IMG/VR virus record: IMGVR_UViG_3300044729_000553
Location: 1-21,287 of that record
Length of the DNA stretch: 21,287 nt
Reading direction: 5' to 3' (one strand)
Source of the DNA: a virus
A program made the position numbers and the translations under genes. Shown here piece by piece: positions 8,457 through 21,287 of this stretch (positions within the stretch are counted from its first letter, which is position 1; every line of letters starts with the position of its first letter). Under the pieces are notes generated by a model. It was not told the DNA's origin. It did no database searches and saw only the letters and a list, made by a program, of their open reading frames with translations.

Positions 8457-11400
8457 TTATCTTACTTGTGTGACCGTTAGGATTATTGATGGTATTGAAG
8501 GTATGTTACCCGTTGCATTTTCTGCTAATAGTATAGCATCTCCATTTGTATTTTGCCATGCTAATTCAAAGTAATCACTTGCAACTGCATCAACAACATA
8601 ATTCCATGCTGCAATCAATTCTTCATTATTTGCTAATACAACATGTCCTGCTGATGCACTTACATTAGTTCCGTTTTTCTTTAACCAAATGTATACATCA
8701 TCTGCTCCTGTATCTGCTAGTATTTGTGCTGAGAATTGTATGTTATATGTTCCACTATTTGCTAATGTAATTCTGCTATTAGATGCAATTGATACACCTT
8801 GTGATATATCAGTTTGTTCAAAATTCATTGATTGAGATACGTTTGCACTACCTGATTGATTTATATTACTTTGGAATGCACCTACATTGAATTGTCTGTT
8901 ACCATTTGCAAAGAATGTGCTACCTGATTGAACAGTTAAACTACCTGATACATTTACAGTTCCTTCAAAGTATGAGTTAGACCCACTATCTATTAAGAAG
9001 CCTGTTTTTCTTGTGTCAGCAGAACTTGATACACCTGTTCCTACTGCAAATACAATATCAGAAGTTTTATTTCTAATTCCGTCATCTGCATTATTTCTAC
9101 CAACGAATACAGAACCGAATGAACGAGCATCGTTTGTATTGGAACTAGCACTTACAATCAATCTTTGTCCTAATAGACCAGTAGCAACTGTTGCGGTATA
9201 ATTATTGGAACCACTTACTCTAGCATTACTTGCATTTGAAAATAATGTATTACCATTTCCAAATACAAAGTTTTGATTGAATGACATACCAAAATTCAAA
9301 CTACTTGTTAATTGACTACCTGTCATTAAGAATGTGTTGTTTGCTCCAGCTATTGTATTTGCATTTGCAGTTGGAAGACCTAATCCTACACTTGATGATG
9401 AAAATTGATTTGTTAATATAAATCCAGTATCATTGATTGTATTACCAGTAAATGTTAAAGCAGATGAACTTAAATTTAATGTTACAGTACCATTTATATT
9501 ATTGTTTGTCAATGTTGTAGTAGACCCCGTTAATGCACTTTGATTTGCTATAATGGTAACTGTTCCTTGAATACCATTATTTATCATATTTAATCCAGCA
9601 GTTAATTTCTCTGCATTTAATGCTGCACTACTTCCTATGTTTATAGTTCCTAATACACTATTGCCATTTATATTCCATGCAGAAGAACTTACCGGCCCTC
9701 TCATAGTTAATGTAGTTCCAGCAGCACCAAAGTAGTTATTATTCATTGTTGGACTAAATGCCATTGATGAACTTATTAGTGGGATGTTACTACCGTTTAA
9801 TGCTATATTTCCTAAACCTAAATATCTTTTGAAACCTGTAACTGGTGCTGCTGGGTTAAAGAATATGTTTCCACTACCTGATATTATTGTATCTGCAGTA
9901 TTGGTATTTGTTTTGAATATTAAGTTAATGTTTGTTGCTGCAGAGGAGCTTAAATGTACTAATGCTGCGTATGTTGGAGTAAAAGTACTTGCACCTAATA
10001 CTAAACTACCTGACCTTCCTAATAAATAAACCTCACCTACTCCTGTTCCTGGAATACTATTTATCGTTTGAACACCAACAAAGTTATTCGAACCTGTTGT
10101 TGCAAAACTACCTGTGTTAATTGATGCTCCACTACCTGTTGCAACTGTTAAACTAAATGTAGTTGCATCACCTTTTGTGAATGTCAATACATTACCACTA
10201 ACACTACCAGTTCTCATTAAACTACCTGTGTCCGTGCTTCCTCCACCAGGTATTGTTATTGATGCAGTACCTGCACTTAACGTTGCGGTTACACCTGCAC
10301 CATTAAAATTAAATGAGGTTGCGTTTCCTAATATACTTCCTTCGTCTTGTACTGATATTGTTCCACCACTACTTGTGATTGCATTTATTCTGCTATCAAC
10401 TGATGCTGAATAGTCAACAAAGTTTGTTACCGATGATGATAATAAACCAGAAGGTAATGCACCTGCTCCTGTGAATGAAGATGTTGGTATTAATGTAGTT
10501 TTATTACTAGCATTTCCAACCCATACATATCCTTGTTGTAAAGATGCAGTAAATGTTTGATTTACATTTAAGTTTGAATCAACATACATTCTACCAAAGA
10601 AAGCATTACCCCATACACCACCTTGATTTTCAATTAACCATAATTGTTGTTGTGATACTCCACTACCAGTAATTCTAAAATCAAAGTTTTGTCCATTTTC
10701 AGAACTACCTAATCTTAATTTTGTTGGAGTACCATTTGAATAATAAAATCCAGCCGATGCAGTTATTATTTGGTCAGCTACGAATATATTACTACCGGTT
10801 GTTGCAAAACTACCTGTGTTGATTGTTGCAGCACTACCTGTATCAACTGTAATATTAAATGTTGTTGCATCTCCTTTGGTAAATGTAATTGTATTTAAAT
10901 TCACACTTGCAGTTACTAATGAACTTGCAGTAATTGCAGATGTTACATAACTTCCAGTTTGTCCACCTAATGTATTCCATTTAGCATCATTAGATTGAGT
11001 ATATTCATTTAATGAAGTTAATGGAACCGATGAAGTTAAATATGAGCCAGTTGCAGCTATTAAATTATCTATTTGTAATTGTTGACCAGCATCTACCAAT
11101 GCAACACTTGCTGAATTAGCATATGATGCAGTTGCGTTAATTAAAGAATTTACTTTACTATCGTTAGATTCAGTATAAGCATTAAATGATGCAGTAGTTA
11201 CCAATCCACTAATATCAACCGATGAAGTTAATACAGGTGTTCCATTAACTGTCAAACTACCTTGTACCTTAACACTACCTGAAAGAGTTTGTATGTCTGT
11301 CAACTCATCTCCGAATATATTTGAACCACTAGAATAAATTACACTACTGGTTTCAAAAGTTGTTTGAACATATGTAAACGATGCAGATACTGCTGTAATG

Positions 11401-12410
11401 TTTGTGAATGTTTGATTTGCAGTAAAGTTATTATCTACATTAGTTCTTGCAAAAGAAGCGGTTTCACTTTCAGTAATCCAACTACCACTTACACTTTCAA
11501 TTGATGTTAATCTTTGATTTGCAGATGATGTAAATGTATTATATCCAGTATTGATATCTAATTGAGATGCAGTAAATTCATTCAATGATGTTAATGGAAC
11601 TGATGATGTTAAATAAGAACCACTAGCTGCAATTAAAGAATTAATTTGTGATTGCTGTGCTGCATCTACCACTGCAACCGATGCACTATTTGCGTATGAT
11701 GCAGTAGCAGCAGTTAAATTATTTATTGATGTTTCTGCACTTTGACTGAATGTGTTTAGATTACTTATAGAAATTGCCTGGCTTGCTGTGGTTGAGTTTA
11801 TATTTGCAATTGATATATTGACACTAGCCGAAGTAGATTCTAAGTTATTTAATCTATTATTTGCTGATGAAGTAAATTGATTTAATGATGAAGTTACACT
11901 TTCTAATGTAGTATTCTTAGTATTTTGAGATGCAGTAAATTCGTTTAATGAAGTTAATGGAATTGAACTTGTCAAATATGAACCACTTGCTGCAATTAAC
12001 GAATTAATTTGTGATTGTTGTGCTGCATCTACTGCTGCTACTGAACTACTAATTGCGTAAGATGCAGTTGCGTTAATTAATGAATTTACCTTACTATCAT
12101 TACTTTGTGTATAAGCATTGAATGAAGCAGTCGTAACTAATGATGATGTATTAACATTAGATACCAAAGATGAAGTTGGGAATGAATATGTTTTACCATT
12201 TGCACCACCTATTAACAAATATCCTTCTTGTAAACTTGCAGTTAAACTACCTGAAAGATATAAGTTTCCACCTGTGTTTACCGATACTCCAATTGAATTA
12301 CCTAAACCATCTTGCAAACCAATTAAAGTTGCAGATGCCGTATTGTTAGTCTCTAAGTGTATTAGTGATTGATACGATTGTGAGATATAAAGATTACTTA
12401 AACTACCCAT
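8457..12410 (-). CDS. Large tail fibre with TxS repeats and C-terminal TNF/C1q-like domain
   Basis: The largest protein here, 1317 residues, rich in Ser, Thr, Asn and Ala and nearly free of Cys. Residues 87-471 hold three copies of a repeat with SFNAYTQSNDSKVNSLI, QQSQINSLIAASGSYLTSS and LTSLNEFTASQ, probably a trimeric coiled or beta-stranded shaft. Residues about 507-539 and 741-773 carry a second repeat (KGDATTF, INTGSFATTGSN). Residues 885-995 have regular Asn/Gly/Thr/Ile spacing (NNNINGTVTLNLSSSALTF) suggesting a beta-helix. The last about 145 residues (FNVGAFQSNINQSG to LTVTQVR) look like a TNF/C1q-type jelly roll, with IASNSRITLANSGTYNIQFS as its clearest strand pair, and are the likely receptor-binding tip. 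It starts 18 bases after the tail-completion gene. It shares modules with the 445-residue fibre at 19313-20650. Confidence 0.8.
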   Translation of the reverse strand: MGSLSNLYISQSYQSLIHLETNNTASATLIGLQDGLGNSIGVSVNTGGNLYLSGSLTASLQEGYLLIGGANGKTYSFPTSSLVSNVNTSSLVTTASFNAYTQSNDSKVNSLINATASYAISSSVAAVDAAQQSQINSLIAASGSYLTSSIPLTSLNEFTASQNTKNTTLESVTSSLNQFTSSANNRLNNLESTSASVNISIANINSTTASQAISISNLNTFSQSAETSINNLTAATASYANSASVAVVDAAQQSQINSLIAASGSYLTSSVPLTSLNEFTASQLDINTGYNTFTSSANQRLTSIESVSGSWITESETASFARTNVDNNFTANQTFTNITAVSASFTYVQTTFETSSVIYSSGSNIFGDELTDIQTLSGSVKVQGSLTVNGTPVLTSSVDISGLVTTASFNAYTESNDSKVNSLINATASYANSASVALVDAGQQLQIDNLIAATGSYLTSSVPLTSLNEYTQSNDAKWNTLGGQTGSYVTSAITASSLVTASVNLNTITFTKGDATTFNITVDTGSAATINTGSFATTGSNIFVADQIITASAGFYYSNGTPTKLRLGSSENGQNFDFRITGSGVSQQQLWLIENQGGVWGNAFFGRMYVDSNLNVNQTFTASLQQGYVWVGNASNKTTLIPTSSFTGAGALPSGLLSSSVTNFVDYSASVDSRINAITSSGGTISVQDEGSILGNATSFNFNGAGVTATLSAGTASITIPGGGSTDTGSLMRTGSVSGNVLTFTKGDATTFSLTVATGSGASINTGSFATTGSNNFVGVQTINSIPGTGVGEVYLLGRSGSLVLGASTFTPTYAALVHLSSSAATNINLIFKTNTNTADTIISGSGNIFFNPAAPVTGFKRYLGLGNIALNGSNIPLISSSMAFSPTMNNNYFGAAGTTLTMRGPVSSSAWNINGNSVLGTINIGSSAALNAEKLTAGLNMINNGIQGTVTIIANQSALTGSTTTLTNNNINGTVTLNLSSSALTFTGNTINDTGFILTNQFSSSSVGLGLPTANANTIAGANNTFLMTGSQLTSSLNFGMSFNQNFVFGNGNTLFSNASNARVSGSNNYTATVATGLLGQRLIVSASSNTNDARSFGSVFVGRNNADDGIRNKTSDIVFAVGTGVSSSADTRKTGFLIDSGSNSYFEGTVNVSGSLTVQSGSTFFANGNRQFNVGAFQSNINQSGSANVSQSMNFEQTDISQGVSIASNSRITLANSGTYNIQFSAQILADTGADDVYIWLKKNGTNVSASAGHVVLANNEELIAAWNYVVDAVASDYFELAWQNTNGDAILLAENATGNIPSIPSIILTVTQVR
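10093..10190. repeat. Fibre repeat type 2, copy 1
   Basis: In-gene direct repeat of the segment at 10795-10892. Both encode INTGSFATTGSN preceded by FTKGDATTF, and at DNA level both open with CCTGTTGTTGC or CCGGTTGTTGC followed by AAAACTACCTGTGTT. Divergence is mainly at third codon positions. Confidence 0.7.
10795..10892. repeat. Fibre repeat type 2, copy 2
   Basis: Second copy of the repeat at 10093-10190, inside the 1317-residue fibre gene. A shortened form, ending ATTGSNTF, is also found in the separate fibre gene at 19313-20650. Confidence 0.7.
10999..11210. repeat. Fibre repeat type 1, copy C
   Basis: Coding repeat of about 70 residues in the fibre gene, with SFNAYTESNDSKVNSLI, then SYLTSSVPLTSLNEYTQSND. 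It is the most diverged of three copies; the others lie at 11572-11730 and 11935-12150. Confidence 0.7.
11572..11730. repeat. Fibre repeat type 1, copy B
   Basis: Middle copy of the fibre repeat, encoding ASYANSASVAVVDAAQQSQI and SYLTSSVPLTSLNEFTASQ. It lacks the SFNAYTQ segment found at the start of the other two copies. Confidence 0.7.
11935..12150. repeat. Fibre repeat type 1, copy A
   Basis: The copy nearest the N-terminus of the fibre, encoding SFNAYTQSNDSKVNSLI, AAQQSQINSLIAASGSYL and LTSLNEFTASQ. The copies are colinear in protein and DNA, as expected from internal duplication. Confidence 0.7.
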
Positions 12411-12428
12411 TATTTTTATTTTATATTT

Positions 12429-13286
12429 TTATACTGTCGACCATGTTCTAAATTCTGCATCAGCTCCACTCCATGCTGCCGGAGTTGTAGACCAAACTTT
12501 AGGATTAATCCATAAATTACACAATGCGCAAGTTTGAATTATTCCTGGTTGAAGTATTGGAAGATTTACAAAATCCCAATCATCAGCAGCAATTGGTTCT
12601 ACTATTGTATAACACACTAAGTTAGCATATGTATTTGATAGACCTGGTGATTTCAATGTAGAAAATACTCCACCAATAGTAGATGAATATTGTCCTGGGT
12701 CTAATATTGCTTTGTATCTTTGTCCAGTTAAACAATCTTCAATTATAAATCCTTGCTCACCTTCAACGGGTATTAAAAAAAAAAGACAACGATTTTTGTC
12801 ATTGTGAGTTGTAAGAGTAAACTCCGCAGTCCAACCCGCCAGACCATTGTCAAATCTATCCGCAAAAGGGGTGCATATAATGTCCTCATTGATTTCAAAA
12901 TTCTGGACACCTCTTTGTGTGTAAGAAGTTAAATCGTTCAGGATTGCAAGTGTATTTGCGAATATGTCTACTTTATCATTGACTTGATAATAAGGAATAG
13001 TTTGTTCGTTGTTTGTAGGGTCTGATTCGTTATTTTTATTCTTAACTTTATCAGCAACCATTAACTGACATCTGAAATTAGTAACAGATGTACCAAAGTC
13101 AGATTCTAATATTTGTAAATTACCAATTGGATATTCAGTAAATTCTTTATCATCAAATTCTGCAATGTCTCCCAATGTTACCGCTTGAATAGAAGGGTGA
13201 TTAGACATTATTGTTCTAAAATAATTAACTACATTATAATAAAGTGTGTAGTTAGTGCCTGTGTTAGATATTATTGGTGTTGCCAT
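12429..13286 (-). CDS. Tail-completion protein, long paralogue with C-terminal CxxC module
   Basis: Start set at the ATG at 13286 (MATPIISNTG), 1 base after the previous stop; an in-frame ATG 7 codons earlier would overlap the neighbour, and the later start aligns with the paralogue. The product is 285 residues. Residues 1-170 parallel the upstream 173-residue protein: TNYTLYYNVVNYF, NHPSI, DIAEFDDKEF, ADKVKNKNNESD, TIPYYQVND, QRGVQNFEIN, then RFDNGLAGWTAEFTLTTHND. After NKNRCLF the paralogue ends, whereas this protein continues for about 115 residues: FIIEDCLTGQRYKAILDPGQ, a CYTIVEP segment, and CALCN with a CxxC pair. I recall such Cys-containing modules appended to phage tail proteins. The joint lies on a run of ten T bases (12775-12784). 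The core is probably a tail terminator or gpU-like fold, an inference from position. Confidence 0.6.
   Translation of the reverse strand: MATPIISNTGTNYTLYYNVVNYFRTIMSNHPSIQAVTLGDIAEFDDKEFTEYPIGNLQILESDFGTSVTNFRCQLMVADKVKNKNNESDPTNNEQTIPYYQVNDKVDIFANTLAILNDLTSYTQRGVQNFEINEDIICTPFADRFDNGLAGWTAEFTLTTHNDKNRCLFFLIPVEGEQGFIIEDCLTGQRYKAILDPGQYSSTIGGVFSTLKSPGLSNTYANLVCYTIVEPIAADDWDFVNLPILQPGIIQTCALCNLWINPKVWSTTPAAWSGADAEFRTWSTV
12774..12780 (-). other. Candidate -1 ribosomal slippery heptamer T TTT TTA
   Basis: On the coding strand the in-frame codons are CTT TTT TTT TTA, so the heptamer T TTT TTA is in the right phase for a tandem -1 slip. After a shift, three codons (AAT ACC CGT) precede TGA at 12763-12765. 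The shifted product would end RCLFFLNTR at 174 residues, against 173 in the upstream paralogue, which ends RCLFELYPN. I see no obvious downstream stem-loop. Confidence 0.4.
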
Positions 13287-13287
13287 A

Positions 13288-13809
13288 TTAATTTGGATAT
13301 AATTCAAATAGACAACGATTCTTGTCGTTGTGTGTTGTTAAAGTAAATGTTACTACCCATCCTGCTAATCCGTTATCAAATCTTTCTTCAAATTGTTTAC
13401 AATTAATTGCACCATTGATATCAAAGTTAGTAACTCCTCTTTGAATAAAAGAAGTTATGTCATTTACGATTGCAAGTGTGTTTGACCAAATATCCATCAA
13501 ATCATCTACTCCATAATAAGGAATAGTTTGCTGATTAGTTCTAACATCACTTTCATTATTATTATCCTTAATCTTATCAGCAACTATTATTTGTATTTCA
13601 TAATTAGTTATACTATTTGCAAATCTAGTTGATGGTATTATAACATTAGCAACAGGGTATGCAGGAAACTCTCTCTTATCAAGCTCATCAATCTCTTCGG
13701 TTGATACTGAGTTAATAGATGGATGTTGTGCCATATACTCTGCAAAGAAATTAATCAAATTGTAATAATTTGTATAATTTACATTTGTATTTGTTACTAA
13801 TACACTCAT
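13288..13809 (-). CDS. Tail-completion protein, short paralogue
   Basis: A 173-residue protein parallel to residues 1-174 of the next gene, with shared landmarks NYTNYYNLINFF, QHPSI, EIDELDKREFPAYPVANV, ADKIKDNNNESD, QQTIPYYGVDDLMDIW, SFIQRGVTNFDINGAI, then RFDNGLAGWVVTFTLTTHND. Similar proteins occur between connector and tail genes of Bacteroidota phages; a tail terminator or gpU-like role closing the tube at the neck is likely but not proven from sequence. It starts 5 bases after the connector stop. The pair must come from tandem duplication, and each copy may occupy a different ring, or one may have drifted to a new role. Confidence 0.6.
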   Translation of the reverse strand: MSVLVTNTNVNYTNYYNLINFFAEYMAQHPSINSVSTEEIDELDKREFPAYPVANVIIPSTRFANSITNYEIQIIVADKIKDNNNESDVRTNQQTIPYYGVDDLMDIWSNTLAIVNDITSFIQRGVTNFDINGAINCKQFEERFDNGLAGWVVTFTLTTHNDKNRCLFELYPN

Positions 13810-15636: not shown

Positions 15637-16020
15637 TTAAGTCAAAATTATGTATCTGTTTTCACTAGCGTGTGAAATTACTGGTGGTATTTGGTTTTCG
15701 TATACTGATTTGTCAATTGATTGAGATGCATATACTTGTATTGAACCTTGCCATATTGCATTGCCTGTTGCATTAGAAGTTATGTTGTTTGCTCCTTGAT
15801 TATAAAGTGTTGCTCTATATTCAGCACCTTGATATGCACCACTAATACTTCCTGTAAATGCAACAAAGGATTCATATCCATTATAAGACATACTTGCCAT
15901 TGACATGGTTAAGTTTTGTAGAGTATACATATCTTGTAAAGACATTGTAAACTCATTGGAGCCAGTAGGTTGTGTTCTAAATGTATACTCATTTGATTGA
16001 GATATGTAATATGCTAGCAT
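15637..16020 (-). CDS. Small beta-rich virion protein, unknown role
   Basis: A 127-residue protein with alternating strands: YYISQSNEYTFRTQ, EFTMSLQDMYTLQNLTMSM, YRATLYNQG, IWQGSIQVYASQSIDKSVYE, NRYIILT. The YRATLYN and WQGSIQVYASQS segments match small proteins I recall from marine and Bacteroidota phages near portal genes; their function is not known to me. A head decoration or neck protein is possible. The gene is the first after the strong terminator at 16084-16113 and has its own upstream dyad element at 16049-16081, so it probably opens a new transcription unit with the portal and tail genes. It ends one base before the portal start. Confidence 0.65.
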   Translation of the reverse strand: MLAYYISQSNEYTFRTQPTGSNEFTMSLQDMYTLQNLTMSMASMSYNGYESFVAFTGSISGAYQGAEYRATLYNQGANNITSNATGNAIWQGSIQVYASQSIDKSVYENQIPPVISHASENRYIILT

Positions 16021-16083: not shown

Positions 16084-16113
16084 AAAAAAACCCCACTCCG
16101 AAGAGTAGGGTTT
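16084..16113 (-). terminator. Rho-independent terminator with UUCG loop
   Basis: On the minus strand, AAACCCTACTC, loop TTCG, GAGTGGGGTTT, then a T-run (7 Ts). The stem is 11 base pairs with one T-G wobble, closed by the very stable C(UUCG)G loop. It lies 23 bases past the stop of the tail tube gene and is the only GC-rich hairpin with a T-tract that I found. Confidence 0.92.
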
Positions 16114-16136: not shown

Positions 16137-16682
16137 TTAAGCAGGTGTACCATAAACTACTGAGTAGTTTGCAGTTAAACCGCCTAATGCGTTAGATGTT
16201 GAACTTCCAGAAATGAATGCTGCTGGTAATTGTTCCATACCTGTGAACGTTACTGAATAACCATAAAGGTCACCCAATGCTGCTCCGGTTTGAATTGTAC
16301 CTGCGGTTACATCCGCTCCTAATTTTTCACCAACTAACAATGCATCACCGTTATTTGTCCAAACGATTATTTGAGGACGACCATAAGCCATAAGCTTTAA
16401 TTGAGTAGTCATCTCGTTTGTTAACTTCTTTAAGTTTAGAATTAATTCTTGTGAAAAGAATGTAGTTCCGTTATCTCTTGAAGTGGTAACAGTTTCAGTA
16501 TATGCACTTGAACCTTTAAGTTGGTAGAAGTATAATACACTACCTGATGGTACTGCAGTTACTTCACCGCTTCCGTTTTTAGTGAAAGACCCAGTTGTAT
16601 AGTTTACGAAGTATACTCCTTGTATACCACCGATACTTTCTTTACAAACTTCTTGTCTTCCTGCTGATAAATTACATGGCAT
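16137..16682 (-). CDS. Probable major tail tube protein
   Basis: A 181-residue protein of alternating strands. The start carries CNLSAGRQEVCKESIGGIQG, a Cys-x-Gly-Arg-x-x-Cys-Lys pattern I recall from abundant structural proteins of Bacteroidota phages. Further marks are SQELILNLKKLTNEMTTQLK (74-93), GRPQIIVWTNNGDALLVGE (100-118) and ALGDLYGYSVTFTGMEQLPA, the last resembling the end strands of tail tube proteins. It follows the capsid gene by 30 bases and is followed by the strong terminator, so capsid and this protein are probably made together in large amounts. A head decoration protein is the main alternative. The role is inferred. Confidence 0.55.
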   Translation of the reverse strand: MPCNLSAGRQEVCKESIGGIQGVYFVNYTTGSFTKNGSGEVTAVPSGSVLYFYQLKGSSAYTETVTTSRDNGTTFFSQELILNLKKLTNEMTTQLKLMAYGRPQIIVWTNNGDALLVGEKLGADVTAGTIQTGAALGDLYGYSVTFTGMEQLPAAFISGSSTSNALGGLTANYSVVYGTPA

Positions 16683-20989: not shown

Positions 20990-21287
20990 TCATCTTTTTC
21001 ATTGCTTCATTGTGTAATAAAGTTTCAGTTTTATTTCTATCCGATTTGTATGCAAGATATAATAAACACTTCTCTAATGGTTCTCTTGTAACTAAATCTA
21101 TTTTCGTAATATCTCCGCCGGCGAGGTCAATGAGTGTGGAATAAGCTGACCACTTCTTTCCAAAATTTGCTTGATGTTGGGATGTATATCCTTCGCCATC
21201 GTAGATTTCAGGATACCTTTCAGCAAGTCCATTAATAAATTGACAAAAAAAAACAATGCACCAAAGTGAACATCCATACCTACTTTT
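20985..21287 (-). CDS. C-terminal part of small phage protein, N-terminus outside window
   Basis: A 100-codon frame open to the window edge, ending MKKMR-stop. The readable part starts KSRYGCSLWCIVFFCQF and carries ANFGKKWSAYSTLIDLAGGD (40-59), ITKIDLVTREPLEKCLLYLA and NKTETLLHNEAMKKM. I recall small helical proteins with the pattern KKW-x-x-Y-x-x-x-x-x-LA-x-GD in structural regions of Bacteroidota phages; their role is unknown to me, and a tail assembly chaperone is one possibility. The competing frame (ATG-first reading from about 21276) lacks this pattern and stops earlier. The N-terminal residues after the edge include four Cys. Confidence 0.65.
   Translation of the reverse strand, partial: KSRYGCSLWCIVFFCQFINGLAERYPEIYDGEGYTSQHQANFGKKWSAYSTLIDLAGGDITKIDLVTREPLEKCLLYLAYKSDRNKTETLLHNEAMKKMR

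Follow-up and report, generated by a model that had tools for sequence, protein, structure and literature searches.

Why should a phage gene keep ten consecutive thymines in its coding strand, exactly where its first domain ends? The gene in question lies in the linear virus record IMGVR_UViG_3300044729_000553 of IMG/VR, all 21,287 bases of which make up the window analysed here. It encodes a protein of 285 residues, in which a probable tail terminator domain is followed by a module with conserved cysteines; the run of ten T (T10) lies at the end of the terminator domain, and no A or T run elsewhere in the window is longer than nine. From the comparative data described below, functional slippage of some kind at T10 appears highly probable. 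We put a probability of roughly 0.7 on the more specific reading that RNA polymerase is the main agent and that a short and a long terminator protein are the products. The elements of the site are the following.

12429 to 13286, minus strand: the long gene, 285 residues with its start codon ATG at 13286, encoding a tail terminator domain and the cysteine module.
12775 to 12784, minus strand: the putative T10 slippage run, ten A on the plus strand, in codons CTT TTT TTT TTA at 12785-12774.
12763 to 12774, minus strand: the −1 frame exit AAT ACC CGT TGA, reached when one U is inserted or the ribosome slips by −1.
12773 to 12775, minus strand: the +1 frame stop TAA, reached through one deleted U, directly after the run; product of 170 residues.
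12786 to 12805, minus strand: the stem-loop ACAATGA-caaaaa-TCGTTGT, one C before T10, 7 base pairs, −5.2 kcal/mol.
12774 to 13286, minus strand: the tail terminator domain, residues 1-171, the predicted short product after slippage, with Foldseek matches.
12432 to 12773, minus strand: the C-terminal module, residues 172-285, in the long form only, with four invariant cysteines.
13288 to 13809, minus strand: a dedicated short terminator paralogue, 173 residues, no T run, 55% identity to the long gene over the first 180 residues.

The geometry had been read correctly in the original prediction, which proposed from the window alone that the gene yields a long and a short form. The run stands at CTT TTT TTT TTA in frame 0 of the open reading frame 12429-13286, and a −1 slip leads through AAT ACC CGT TGA to a product of 174 residues, ending in LNTR before the stop at 12763-12765. 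The upstream paralogue does have 173 residues, and both sequences carry five residues after RCLF, the paralogue ending in RCLFELYPN.

Is the run maintained? Profile scans of IMG/VR supplied relatives from more than 300 loci, many of them overlapping. The relatives fetched first all had exactly T10, a handful of exceptions appearing in wider sets, and the count finally stood at exactly T10 in 129 of 134 distinct long genes; none of these 134 retains the slippery heptamer without the whole run. A motif scan requiring no protein similarity beyond NRCLFF returned 113 T10, two T9 and one T11 at the site, with a single T8 match that is unrelated. Among about 1.64 million distinct 30-mers of the related loci, T10 was counted 155 times at the site and three times in other places. 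Its recurrence in more than 100 separately named contigs rules out an assembly artefact. The one-base variants (L217/L391 and L414 with T9, L421 with T11) may be real or may be assembly errors; in these the DNA frame encodes the short form, and slippage would yield the long one.

Codon choice tells the same story. The codons of the site are under the strongest synonymous constraint in the gene: Leu168 is CTT in 86 of 86 non-redundant genes, against 13% of leucine codons at other positions of the gene, and TTT encodes both Phe169 and Phe170 in 87 of 87, against a background of 79%. The 87th gene has isoleucine at position 168, encoded by ATT, with T10 still intact; at Leu158, ten codons upstream, four or more codons are in use. 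The codon after the run is TTA or TTG, interchangeably among relatives. In 98% of non-redundant relatives a −1 stop follows the run by no more than four codons, as opposed to 54% elsewhere in the gene.

The pattern of loss points in the same direction. Most of these phages have a single long gene directly after the connector gene, and the branch that includes the window has a short copy in addition; in such short paralogues the homologous leucine codon varies between CTA, TTA, CTT and TTG. We observe T10 in all 62 of the long genes (among 91 non-redundant) whose genome has no short copy. The remaining 29 have one, and 25 of them carry T10 and four do not (L041, L042/L248, L183/L254 and L198, each with its dedicated short gene). 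Three of the four still encode RCLFFL, using TTA or TTG together with TTC. A tree that was made quickly and has modest support in places shows the four losses as independent of one another. All four fall on branches with a short gene, which account for 37% of the tree length (P about 0.02). The original prediction had counted the same fusion without a run as evidence against itself, and such fusions do occur, four times; each, however, lies in a genome that encodes the short form in a gene of its own, and this favours the idea of two forms from one gene. That idea is on the whole well supported by the comparison, in the near-invariance of T10, the closure of the frames and the pattern of loss.

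The stem-loop directly before the run is a further conserved element. Its stem in the window contains two G-C pairs and one G-U pair, and the family mean is −5.95 kcal/mol, compared with −0.51 kcal/mol for synonymous recodings (mean z −6.9). The paired positions are fixed by codons, hence the assessment of the stem relied on synonymous constraint and energy, not covariation; the list of patterns contains no double compensatory changes in the stem. In all four long genes that lost T10 the stem is weakened, with four or five of its seven pairs left. Downstream of the run, the 60 nucleotides show no folding beyond that of synonymous recodings (z +0.36, 40 sequences). A Shine-Dalgarno-like stimulator upstream was not seen by eye in the window, where no systematic scan was made.

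What could be the mechanism? We propose that the long gene makes two proteins. Without slippage the product would be a terminator subunit joined to the cysteine module. At T10, RNA polymerase would slip, probably aided by the nascent stem-loop just upstream, and a fraction of the transcripts would gain or lose U; since both other frames are closed, translation of these messages would yield a terminator subunit without the module, about 170-174 residues long. RNA polymerase is a likelier agent than the −1 heptamer because the full run is conserved, the stem-loop abuts it on the 5' side and nothing folds downstream. The cysteine module most likely anchors the neck fibre encoded by the next gene, and the ratio of short to long protein would then set the number of ring subunits that bear a fibre.

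The assignment of the first domain comes from structure prediction, as Pfam and PHROG searches with the protein of the long gene yielded nothing useful, and no cellular or cultured relative of the gene was found. An AlphaFold2 model of the full-length protein, built from 36 relatives, matches in Foldseek the tail terminators of Mu, pyocin R2 (collar), R4C, T5 (p142), T4 (gp15) and lambda (gpU), with E from 3.6e-5 to about 1e-2 for those of Mu, pyocin R2, R4C, T5 and lambda. The domain can on these matches be taken as a tail terminator of the lambda gpU fold. Many proteins of uncultured phages match the model as well, showing the same domain fused to varied C-terminal parts. In the loci examined the long gene lies directly after the portal and DUF6712 connector genes, which fits a ring where the tail meets the head; terminator rings of known phages are hexameric. 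The cysteine module, 114 residues in length, gave no convincing match in Pfam, in PDB sequences or in fold searches, and one of its 81 members has a single weak PHROG match.

A role for the module is suggested by its genomic company. The gene that follows, and which co-occurs with the module, is

8457 to 12410, minus strand: the fibre gene, immediately following the long gene.

Of 172 complete long genes of the common length whose downstream sequence sufficed to judge, 169 have a fibre gene as their next neighbour, and the same survey found none after short-only genes. Some long proteins extend 149-929 residues past the site, those with 283-929 residues mostly by extra appendage sequence, with T10 kept; where the downstream sequence is visible, no separate fibre gene follows the appendage-bearing genes. 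Four such terminator fusions, of 447-1092 residues and all with T10, are

L327, 6386 to 9664, minus strand.
L399, 3903 to 6077, plus strand.
L322, 1455 to 3290, plus strand.
L402, 1727 to 3070, plus strand.

They have threonine-rich linkers and, in some, glycine-rich (PF21722) or Lcl_C-like (PF07603, below cut-off) domains. Either a fibre gene stands next to the module or an appendage is built in, and therefore the module most likely carries or anchors the neck fibre, as judged from linkage.

Several observations weigh against the mechanism we propose. The full-length model has middling confidence (predicted local distance difference test, pLDDT, of 65). The amino-acid sequence largely dictates the +1 stop, which by itself is weak evidence. 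The link between loss of T10 and presence of a short gene reaches only the P value given above, and the lineage of the window keeps T10 despite having a short gene, so that its two short forms would be partly redundant. One gene, L246 (3992-5413, plus strand), encodes a terminator with a threonine-rich linker and another C-terminal domain and has neither the run nor a short gene. A further point concerns the stem-loop, which most short paralogues keep as ACAAYGA-N6-TCGTTGY without a T run (z −5.9), with CGT, an otherwise rare arginine codon, in 31 of 35. In the window the copy is

13312 to 13331, minus strand: the same stem-loop in the short paralogue, ACAACGA-caagaa-TCGTTGT, with no T run after it.

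Its retention there indicates some function besides or instead of slippage. Two other sources of the pattern were considered and set aside. Avoidance of an internal ATG (AGA TGT) does not account for CGT at Arg166, for AGG should in that case prevail, as in the background (82 AGG to 8 CGT), yet it occurs in 1 of 87; and gene conversion is an unlikely source of the stem in the short copies because their lysine and asparagine codons differ from those of the long ones.

Among the other explanations, the one that survives best is programmed −1 ribosomal frameshifting on U UUU UUA/G, which would give the short form as in E. coli dnaX, where a truncating −1 shift is known (PMC5009743), with T10 merely a rich slippery context. 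This is the mechanism that the original prediction had favoured, and we consider it unlikely, though by some way the best of the alternatives. An in-phase X XXY YYZ heptamer is present in 129 of 129 T10 genes, a point that counts against polymerase slippage as the whole account and makes a ribosomal share possible, and the concentration of −1 stops close to the run favours it as well. However, nothing in the heptamer calls for the third base of CTT, yet that base is invariant and heptamer-only genes are absent. TTA and TTG alternate freely after the run, no stimulator structure was found in the 60 nucleotides downstream, and the stem-loop, one base upstream, would presumably melt under a ribosome positioned on the site. 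A second T run, in a putative chaperone gene described below, keeps its length and not its codon phase, which also speaks against the ribosome. The −1 slip thus stands as possible and second best.

A stem-loop followed by a U run also has the shape of an intrinsic terminator, and the pair might act as a weak terminator, or as a pause site, and so reduce fibre-gene expression, the closure of the frames being incidental. We regard this as very unlikely. The stem is weak, the terminator scan does not list the stem-loop and T10, and a terminator has no need of a length of exactly ten; genes with their own appendage and no fibre gene after them still keep T10, and the association of its loss with a dedicated short gene is not something that a terminator predicts. 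Still less probable is a contingency tract, in which replication slippage would switch the long form on and off: the rare T9 and T11 genomes exist, but they amount to three variants against 113 T10 in the motif scan and could be assembly errors, and phase-variable tracts vary far more between isolates. Chance, codon bias or amino-acid constraint on RCLFFL in an AT-rich genome, or an old fusion point without function, which the original prediction had allowed for, can be dismissed: RCLFFL hardly varies among T10 genes and the common phenylalanine codon is TTT, but the CTT and 30-mer counts contradict such an origin, as do the three run-less genes that spell the same peptide with other codons.

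Polymerase slippage of the proposed kind has precedents outside tail genes. The dnaX gene of Thermus thermophilus produces tau and gamma through transcriptional slippage on nine consecutive bases (T9/A9), with stops in both frames (PMC5009743). The present site likewise has a long in-frame A/T homopolymer of at least nine and nearby stops in both other frames, and a full-length unslipped and a truncated slipped product are predicted here too; it differs in lying in a phage tail terminator gene, with ten T in the coding strand, a conserved stem-loop before the run and an appendage module on the long form. In a Roseiflexus insertion sequence, a stem-loop immediately 5' of the run promotes slippage (PMC5009743), and ours is adjacent on the same side, although there the run is T5C5 and the stem G+C-rich and required, whereas here a weak stem precedes T10 and occurs in run-less paralogues as well. 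Homopolymer slippage also yields truncated variants of structural proteins beside the full-length ones in Yersinia pseudotuberculosis tssM3 (PMC4256274) and Shigella spa33/mxiA (PMC5009743). Those are secretion-system genes, and slippery tssM is rare, unlike the T10 site, which is kept across a large phage group. Closest in consequence are SPP1 and the 936 phages (TpeX), in which a programmed shift after the major tail domain decides whether an extra, often adhesive, domain is added (PMC6669499). We propose a similar decision after a tail structural domain, with the difference that there the shift makes the long form and the subunits form tube rings, while here the unshifted frame is the long one and the gene is a terminator.

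The open-licence papers searched contained no programmed shift in a tail terminator gene. If the proposal is true, it would locate phage recoding in a gene where it is new, and it would suggest how a closed ring comes to bear appendages on only some of its subunits. The lineages with a duplicated gene would then represent a natural experiment, a gene having taken over there from a recoding site, and the conserved run could serve as a search marker for other two-form genes that annotation pipelines miss.

The window holds a second candidate of this kind.

21245 to 21253, minus strand: a second conserved T run, T9, in a putative tail-assembly-chaperone gene that extends from 20985 to the contig edge at 21287.

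This run is T9 or T10 in ten loci, the window included. The upstream frame bears a weak resemblance to tail assembly chaperones (Phage_TAC_7, E 0.004; PHROG tail assembly chaperone, E 0.009), and the conserved downstream half (QFINGLAERYPEIYDGEG...) lies in the −1 frame, an arrangement like that of the G/GT frameshift. Across relatives the run starts at all three codon positions; its length is kept and its phase is not, as expected if length rather than phase matters. A broader picture, in which RNA polymerase slippage at T10 lets simple subunits and ones that bear a fibre share a ring and sets the number of neck fibres per virion, the chaperone run is analogous and gene duplication can replace the site and free it to decay, is one we offer tentatively, at somewhat less than even odds. 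Apart from these runs, the window contains a strong hairpin with a T tail, resembling an intrinsic terminator, at 16088-16113 on the minus strand, between the genes 16137-16682 and 15637-16020.
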